From Oscillospiraceae bacterium (GTDB lineage: Bacteria > Bacillota > Clostridia > Oscillospirales > CAG-272): DNA of 33,646 nt. The position numbers and the translations under genes are program-made. The notes below the pieces were generated by a model, which was not told the DNA's origin, made no database searches, and saw only the letters and a list, made by a program, of their open reading frames with translations. This document shows positions 3,158 through 32,090 of the stretch, piece after piece (the first letter of the stretch is position 1; each line of letters starts with the position of its first letter). The stretch lies in the NCBI GenBank assembly GCA_015065045.1, contig SVRB01000003.1, positions 1 to 33,646 on the forward strand. The letters run 5' to 3'.

Positions 3158-3392
3158 GGGACGTCGTGGGCGCCGTCCCCCACAAATACCAATATTATCT
3201 CATAAAACAATAAATCTTCCGCAGACCACGGAGGGTTCCGAGGGAGGAAAGACCTCGGTCGTTTTAAGGGTAGGGTTCAAAGGGAGGGGAAATCGAAATC
3301 CCCTCCCTTGTGCCTTCTTTGGTTACTTTCTTGGCACGCAAGAAAGTAACGTAAAAAAGAAAAGATAATATTATTTCGCAAAATAATACGTC
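3158..3392. repeat. Dispersed intergenic repeat, block 1, copy 1
   Basis: Closely similar to 31727-31960: TCTCATAAA.CAATAAATCTTCC, GGAGGGTTCCGAGGGAGGAAA, CCCCTCCCTTGTGCCTTCTTTGGTTACTTTCTTGxCACGCAAGAAAGTAACGTAAAAAA. Contains a perfect 12-bp hairpin GTTACTTTCTTG-GCACG-CAAGAAAGTAAC. Confidence 0.9.
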
Positions 3393-3422
3393 TTTGCCCT
3401 CTCAGTCAGCTTTGCTGACAGC

Positions 3423-3449
3423 GTCTCGTTGCGACTCGGTCACGGTTCG
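3423..3449. repeat. 27-bp direct repeat, copy 2
   Basis: Identical to 3089-3115. Confidence 0.9.
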
Positions 3450-3530
3450 GCTCTGACATCACACCGTGATGTCATTCACTCCCTCACCGCCGCTTCGCTA
3501 CCCGAGGGGAGAGCCTAAAAGGCACAGAAT

Positions 3531-3612
3531 GTCAGGAGCTTCGCTCCCGAACCCACACAAGAGGCGCACTTTTGAAAAAGTGCCCTCTTGACTCCCTCAA
3601 AACTTTTAATAG
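3531..3612. repeat. Dispersed intergenic repeat, block 2, copy 1 (structured)
   Basis: GTCAGGAGCTTCGCTCCCGAACCCACAC shared with 32011-32038, then a 15-bp hairpin 3558-3590. Confidence 0.85.
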
Positions 3613-3625
3613 ATTTTGCGAACTT

Positions 3626-3662
3626 TGCAAAAAAACAAACGGGTGAAAAATTCACCCGTTTA
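3626..3662 (-). terminator. Intrinsic terminator downstream of khpA
   Basis: AAACGGGTGAA-TTT-TTCACCCGTTT followed on the minus strand by GTTTTTTTGC. Confidence 0.85.
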
Positions 3663-3665
3663 TCT

Positions 3666-10600: not shown

Positions 10601-10610
10601 AAATAAAAAA

Positions 10611-10711
10611 CCTCATCTTTCGGATCTGTTCCGCAGGATTTAGCACCTTAAAAAACGTTTTTCAGGTTGCCGGGCATCATAGGGCCTGTCCCTCCGCCAC
10701 TCTTGATAAGG
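10611..10711 (-). ncRNA. SAM-I (S-box) riboswitch
   Basis: Minus strand CCTTATCAAGAGTGGCGGAGGGACAGGCCCTATGATGCCCGGCAACCTG...AAGGTGCTAAATCCTGCGGAAC...GATGAGG, matching the S-box consensus, upstream of metK. Confidence 0.97.
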
Positions 10712-10734
10712 GAATATTCAATTCATACAAATAT

Positions 10735-11435: not shown

Positions 11436-11463
11436 TCAAAACAGCATAGTACTATTTTAATAA

Positions 11464-11580
11464 ACTTCTATCATCCGGACTATACCGTCGGCTTTGGAAT
11501 TACACCAAATCAACCTTATTTTCAAAAAAACAAGGCTCGTGGGCTTTACCACCGGTGAGGAATTGCACCTCGCCCCGAAG
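11464..11580 (-). ncRNA. FMN riboswitch (RFN element)
   Basis: Minus strand CTTCGGGGCGAGGTGCAATTCCTCACCGGTGGTAAAGCCCACGAGCC...GTGTAATTCCAAAGCCGACGGTATAGTCCGGATGATAGAAG. Confidence 0.97.
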
Positions 11581-11597
11581 TTAATTTCTTATCAGCA

Positions 11598-31726: not shown

Positions 31727-31960
31727 GGGAGGAGCAAGCCCCTCCCCTACCAATATCAATATTTTCTCATAAAGCAATAAATCTTCCACATACCAGGGAG
31801 GGTTCCGAGGGAGGAAATCCCTCGGCCGTTTGAAAGGGTGGGGTCAGGGGGAGGGGAGGATCGGAACTCCCCTCCCTTGTGCCTTCTTTGGTTACTTTCT
31901 TGACACGCAAGAAAGTAACGTAAAAAAAGAAAAGATAATATTATTTTGACAAATAATACA
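31727..31960. repeat. Dispersed intergenic repeat, block 1, copy 2
   Basis: Closely similar to 3158-3392, including the GTTACTTTCTTG-ACACG-CAAGAAAGTAAC hairpin and AAAGATAATATTATTT module. Confidence 0.9.
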
Positions 31961-32010
31961 TCTTAGAAAAAAAGAAAAAAGCTGACGCTTTTTTCGAAGG
32001 AGCACAAAAA

Positions 32011-32090
32011 GTCAGGAGCTTCGCTCCCGAACCCACACCAAAGATGCTTTTTGAAAAAAGCACCTTTGGAATCCGCAAAAACTTTAATAC
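32011..32090. repeat. Dispersed intergenic repeat, block 2, copy 2 (structured)
   Basis: GTCAGGAGCTTCGCTCCCGAACCCACAC identical to 3531-3558, then a hairpin 32038-32069 of different sequence. Confidence 0.85.

Follow-up and report, generated by a model that had tools for sequence, protein, structure and literature searches.

The formation and role of DNA triple helices in bacteria is an old question that has rested on test-tube work and sequence searches. Third strands that pass from a pyrimidine into a purine motif are known from designed alternate-strand triplexes, and bcr1, BOX, RUP and similar Gram-positive repeats are non-coding, intergenic sequences of Firmicutes with conserved secondary structure, as is the element described here; to our knowledge third-strand covariation has not been described for these Gram-positive repeats. 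The closest described systems are the BoxC, PIT and TM elements and the ITxF classes I-IV (PMC4666352), in which a single strand folds back twice and the third strand, which in a triplex must be the mirror image of the purine strand of the duplex, mirrors the purine arm. BoxC, PIT and TM elements lie in many intergenic copies at unstable loci, PIT elements being known to stall polymerases in vitro and to mark such loci, and purine-motif triplexes have been reported not to form in RNA (PMC4666352, where neither Clostridia nor covariation is mentioned). REP, BIME and REPIN sequences (PMC3116915, PMC6006769) are short extragenic hairpins of high copy number with inverted doublets and compensated stems, and the LE and RE ends of IS608 (IS200/IS605) consist of a single-stranded DNA hairpin with functional sequence 5' of its foot and with base triples (PMC6006769).

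Here we analysed a window of 33,646 nucleotides, that is the whole stretch of DNA presented above, which corresponds to contig C109 of an assembly of 1.40 Mb (137 contigs, 80% complete). Two copies of an intergenic repeat in this window are members of a DNA repeat with dozens of copies per genome in most of the genera of a single family. Judging from sequence comparison, we think it rather probable that we are dealing with a dispersed non-coding repeat, about 75 nt in length, the minus strand of which would fold, when single-stranded, into tandem intrastrand triplex hairpins. The features listed above for BoxC, PIT and TM elements, for REP-type repeats and for the IS608 ends have their likeness in it, the inverted doublets in several genera and the third strand and base triples as proposed features, and in kind it resembles the BoxC/PIT motifs while falling outside their published search criteria. 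Its hundreds of natural copies form a mutational record in which the third strand tracks the hairpin base by base, and the fold can hence be read from evolution; if the reading is true, this covariation would be evolutionary evidence of a DNA triple helix forming and mattering in bacterial cells.

Anatomy of the repeat

Read on the minus strand of the window, which is the informative one (5'-AAAGTTTT...CTCCTGA-3'), the element follows the plan 5'-AAAGTTTTTG-linker-(hairpin 1, apex CTTTTTTCAAAAAG)-yGGGGT-(hairpin 2, GGGGC-nnn-GCCCC)-3' (Table 1). When the sequence was re-read, the copies that the initial annotation had placed at 3531-3612 and 32011-32090 were both present and shared GTCAGGAGCTTCGCTCCCGAACCCACAC (28 nt), the long hairpin of each copy was located as claimed, and the four changes described in the inner 8 bp (G-C/T-A, C-G/G-C, A-T/C-G and C-G/T-A) indeed leave the pairing intact. 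Other parts of that description had to be amended. The small hairpin exists, and on the minus strand its stem extends to 8 bp with one G.T pair; similarly, the A/C mismatch of copy 2 is read on the minus strand as a G.T pair. The repeat is about 20 nt longer than the hairpin formerly delimited and reaches into AAAGTTTTTG and the linker, which are themselves part of the structure, and this third strand, missed at first reading, is the most informative feature of the element. Folded as DNA, each strand of both copies exceeded dinucleotide shuffles in stability by 4.1-5.1 sd. The small hairpin searched by itself as the pattern GGAGCTTCGCTCC with up to 2 mismatches gave 3 matches against 0.4 expected, which is near chance. 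The 86-nt block yielded 46 matches in the own genome.

Table 1. Positions in the window of the parts of the two repeat copies and of adjoining features
Feature	Position	Strand	Remark
Copy 1 leader AAAGTTTTGAGGGAGT	3591..3606	-	Proposed third strand of hairpin 1 (T-run + linker)
Copy 1 hairpin 1 CAAGAGGGCACTTTT-TC-AAAAGTGCGCCTCTTG	3558..3590	-	One bulged base
Copy 1 TGTGGGT	3551..3557	-	Proposed third strand of hairpin 2 (GTGGG against GGGAG)
Copy 1 hairpin 2 TCGGGAGC-GAA-GCTCCTGA	3532..3550	-	
Copy 2 leader AAAGTTTTTGCGGATT	32070..32085	-	Proposed third strand of hairpin 1
Copy 2 hairpin 1 CCAAAGGTGCTTTTT-TC-AAAAAGCATCTTTGG	32038..32069	-	Unbroken stem, one G.T pair on the minus strand
Copy 2 TGTGGGT	32031..32037	-	Proposed third strand of hairpin 2
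Copy 2 hairpin 2 TCGGGAGC-GAA-GCTCCTGA	32012..32030	-	
khpA terminator-like hairpin and T-run	3625..3665	-	Directly upstream of copy 1 (sense); outside the element
Further mosaic-block modules beside copy 1	3173..3530	-	
Further mosaic-block modules beside copy 2	31740..32010	-	

Covariation between the hairpin arms

Alignment of 84 distinct copies, fitted to a covariance model, had 98.4% of its cells paired, and 21 of the 23 pairs had changed on both sides with pairing kept, which supports the earlier suggestion that selection acts on structure. Compensated cells numbered 405 against 88 in shuffles, none of the 500 shuffles reached the observed values, and the signal was lost once the partner was slid by 1-3 columns. 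A free MAFFT alignment of the own-genome copies, which is the cautious version of this analysis, gave 92.8% paired cells and 40 compensated against 15. The sense strand showed a modest asymmetry, with 19 distinct G.T events against 7 A.C events (p = 0.03 in an unbiased count).

Matched arms could also arise in a functionless repeat through intrastrand repair or template switching, the likeness of the leader to the stem then being due to composition or ancestry, an explanation that we regard as unlikely. Template switching would indeed restore arms without selection, and chimeric and truncated copies are common: the copies of the own genome carry three stem types (CAAGAGGGCAC..., CAAGAGGGGC... 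and CCAAAGGTGC...), and a few chimeras, whose two arms differ in type and whose stems are broken, persist (for example, L014 and L031). It is the relation of the third strand to the stem that this explanation fails to accommodate, as examined in the following section. Truncated copies consisting of leader and left arm were also seen (L035, L037, L038, L039 and L029), fused to GTAGGGGGCGACGTCCCCGACGCCCCG-type hairpins at the loop or close to it; these hairpins begin with GTAG, a tag typical of REPs, in a genome without a Y1 transposase.

A proposed third strand

The T-run of the leader matches the run at the apex of hairpin 1 (TTTT with TTTT, TTTTT with TTTTT, TTTTTT with TTTTTT, and TTCTT-type with TTCTT-type). 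Taking one copy per genus in 34 genera, the length of the T-run was coupled to that of the apex T/A-run (r = 0.87) and the length of the linker to that of the lower stem (r = 0.93); this sampling reduces shared ancestry and leaves some of it, the genera not being independent lineages. A stricter second parser applied to all copies gave 0.86-0.92 for the T-run and a weaker coupling for the linker (r = 0.78 for the first set, 0.62 for a separate one). At the level of single positions, mutual information peaked between linker positions 2, 3, 4 and 5 and left-arm positions 2, 4, 5 and 6 counted from the apex (z 5.9, 5.7, 6.1 and 10.1, respectively). Linker positions 2, 3 and 5 replicated in a second set, fetched separately and covering 16 genera (z 5.6, 5.0 and 7.6), in which position 4, which hardly varies, did not (z 1.0). 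The register was also recovered within a single length class (z 5.6, 8.4, 3.1 and 11.3), where linker 6 with arm 7 was added to it (z 6.2), and its one-base skip falls where the purines switch strands.

Linker and arm pairs such as GAGGGG/CAAGGGG, GAAAGG/CAAAAGG, GAGAG/CAAGAG, GGGA/CCCAG and GGGG/CCCCG illustrate this tracking, as does genome G050, in which the linker GAGGTT accompanies CAAGGATTC and GGGGTT accompanies CCCCGATTC. When linkers were swapped between copies of one genome the mirror score fell by 6.8 sd, or by 3.7 at equal length, where direct similarity changed by only 0.07 sd. Composition does yield some mirror signal in control hairpins of the same loci (z 2.2-3.0), as a functionless repeat would lead one to expect, but 120 copies of the element reached 13.6-14.8 and base composition accounts for a minor part of the signal. 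Two details depart from the pattern, namely the lowest linker bases (ATT), which do not track the stem, and linker position 2, whose code (C over left G) is a non-standard triple. In hairpin 2 the strand between the two hairpins mirrors the purine arm in the same manner (AGGG/GGGA, GGAG/GAGG and GGGAG/GAGGG; for the window see Table 1), with a mirror z of 5.2 across 36 genera and 7.5 within genera, against 1.65 for direct and 0.1 for complement controls.

These results bear on the choice between a functionless repeat and a folded one, because no polymerase process makes mirror copies, and because the direct and complement controls drop whereas the signal persists inside genomes as well as in a single length class. 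Watson-Crick pairing would yield complements, and a mirror relation is impossible by polymerase copying, hence our preference for a triplex. The third strand mirrors the purine strand or matches it under the code T.A-T, C.G-C, G.G-C and A.A-T. We infer from this pattern that the covariation probably reflects a real triple helix and that the fold would be the selected feature. Whether selection maintains throughout the family an alternate-strand intrastrand triplex, with pyrimidine-motif and then purine-motif triples followed by a second, class I triplex, is a proposal for which we see the arguments as evenly balanced.

In hairpin 1, the stem groove would take up the 5' leader. The T-run of the leader, in some copies TTCTT, would sit on the T-A apex and run parallel to the purine right arm with T.A-T and C.G-C triples, and the linker would continue towards the foot over the purines of the left arm with G.G-C and A.A-T triples. 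The hairpin would thus start as class IV (T/C, right-arm purines, parallel) and continue as class I (G/A, left-arm purines, antiparallel), and since the polarity does not change, one third strand could follow both arms. For hairpin 2, the part of third strand would fall to the GGGG-type strand before it, giving the class I order of third strand, purine arm and pyrimidine arm (PMC4666352). Hairpin 1 would differ from the published classes in combining class IV and class I within one third strand. Of 165 units only 6, all of class I, were detected under the ITxF criteria (triplex stem 6-15, loops 1-6), the proposed triple tracts being short (4-6 per motif) and the linker long; the TM-ECO consensus CCCTCNCCC N3-6 GGGNGAGGG N3 GGGNGAGGG had no match on either strand of the window.

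Distribution and relation to mobile repeats

A first covariance model, built from 28 own-genome copies, found the element in 84 of 119 genomes and 53 of 71 genera of the same family, many of the counts being lower bounds, with up to 103 copies per genome where up to 122 candidates were scored per genome. A broader model extended this to 263 of 397 family genomes (55 of the 71 genera). Outside the family the element is rare: the counts were 10 of 288 genomes at class level, where the copies are shorter and the plan is unchanged, and, at phylum level, 5 of 398, one of which is the own genome. Neither 72,556 plasmid records (best E about 0.01) nor 50,697 phage records (best E about 0.004) held a clear full-length match, for which reason a phage or plasmid origin was rejected, and among 2.9 million viral contigs, from which the element is almost absent, a loose pattern matched one. 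The search of Rfam that had been proposed, run with the window and with divergent copies, gave no match above the gathering score and no family that fits. The repeat is common in gut-type, Clostridia-like genomes and apparently still unnamed, and it fragments assemblies and reshuffles intergenic DNA.

Among the three explanations offered by the initial annotation, a single-stranded, REP-like substrate came nearest, although the marks of a canonical REP and a linked Y1 transposase were not found. A REP- or REPIN-like non-autonomous mobile element, with single-stranded hairpins moved by an HUH (Y1, RAYT-type) transposase, would account for the intergenic position, the large number of copies, the head-to-head doublets seen in several genera and stems compensated like those of REPINs (PMC3116915). 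It would also agree with new blocks that stand at orthologous sites in two species and are missing, at the sites compared, from a third congener. We nevertheless hold this to be an improbable origin. Y1_Tnp (PF01797) was not found in the own genome, complete to the degree given above; it occurs in 41 of 119 family genomes but is missing from most of those with high copy number, and several genomes that have it lack the element. Since the presence of Y1 does not track the element, a link to a Y1/RAYT transposase was rejected. The foot of hairpin 1 has no conserved GT[AG]G guide: GTAG or GTGG was absent 0-2 nt 5' of it, and GATTC, GAGTC or GTGTC-type sequences stand there in the copies read, whereas GTGG precedes hairpin 2 in many copies, not in all (for example, TCAAGGG and CGGGG). 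Two hairpins per unit and the third-strand covariation further separate the element from REP, BIME and REPIN sequences. From IS200/IS605 ends it differs in that no transposase gene lies between copies in the loci read, the guide would be far from the foot, and the leader would pair along the stem and not with a cleavage site; the AAAG at the start of the leader recalls what we take to be the left guide of IS608. Head-to-head doublets, laid out like REPINs and with spacers of 17-65 nt, were observed in several genera (L078-L082, L090, L106, L112, L121 and L199-L202), while the own genome carries single copies.

Genomic context and proposed role

In the own genome the element has a constant 5' end just past gene ends, usually past a terminator, and for 26 of the 29 copies with a called upstream gene that gene is co-directional and ends 16-230 nt before the element. 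This position is what an intrinsic terminator, or an element associated with one, would show, as had been guessed at first. We consider that reading highly improbable: T-runs lie inside the stem and the leader, and none follows either hairpin on either strand; separate terminators precede the element, a simple scan of 35 genus copies placing a terminator-like hairpin up to 110 nt upstream in 18 and on the opposite side in 5, against 6% at random; and in relatives the element shows no fixed relation to gene direction. We class the element neither with ordinary terminators nor with canonical REPs.

A structured RNA, within a 5' or 3' UTR or a read-through transcript and with its leader making tertiary contacts to the stem, would agree with the strong covariation of one strand and its excess of G.T, with the stability of U.A-U and C.G-C triples in RNA, and with some copies standing just 5' of start codons. 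Much of the third-strand code, however, belongs to the purine motif (G.G-C, A.A-T), whose triplexes are reported to be absent from RNA (PMC4666352), the relation to genes is not fixed across the family, and in the window's genus most copies lie past gene ends and often past terminators and are thus probably poorly transcribed; Rfam, as stated, gives no match. We accordingly judge an RNA to be quite improbable, and the same report of absent purine-motif triplexes in RNA is our reason to favour a fold in DNA.

For such a DNA fold, orientation offers a clue. In this genus the sense strand coincides with the coding strand of the gene upstream and would be the lagging-strand template if that gene is co-directional with replication. 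Together with the shared orientation of copies per contig in congener G040, this makes a fold on transiently single-stranded DNA the most economical interpretation. On the contigs concerned (C5, C6, C7, C15, C21, C23, C24 and C26) nearly all elements point one way, as do 9 of the 10 on C26, suggesting a replication- or gene-direction bias in the genus. The fold may then serve as a single-stranded DNA substrate or as a replication roadblock on the lagging-strand template, which is the use we prefer. It is possible, and we put it forward tentatively, that host machinery copies, exchanges and amplifies the repeat via this fold. Congener G040 has the ortholog of every one of 22 flanking genes, and at most loci read the element block is there too, with another subtype or module order; congener G099 has none of these blocks at the sites compared, where its intergenic DNA is highly diverged. 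The exchange of modules at orthologous sites in G040 agrees with polymerase stalling and unstable loci as known for PIT elements (PMC4666352).

Neighbouring modules

The 3' side of the element is a mosaic of other hairpin modules, and in the window the repeat forms a single module within a larger mosaic (blocks at about 3170-3612 and 31740-32090). One neighbour, at 3315-3345 and 31884-31914 on the minus strand, reads TTTCTT-GCGTGCC-AAGAAA-GTAACC-AAAGAA, its last purine strand mirroring the purine arm in the manner of class II (3' third strand). From 21656 onward, also on the minus strand, GGCTCCCTCCGGGAGGGAGCTGTCGCGAAGCGACTGAGGGAG comprises a Y-R hairpin, then a small hairpin, then a mirror purine strand, and relatives of this module (CTCTCCC..GGGAGAG..GAGAGGG and CCTCC..GGGAGG..GGAGGGAG) were seen in L002, L014, L039, L138 and others. 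The window also carries FMN and SAM riboswitches on its minus strand, at 11459-11586 and 10610-10712, respectively.
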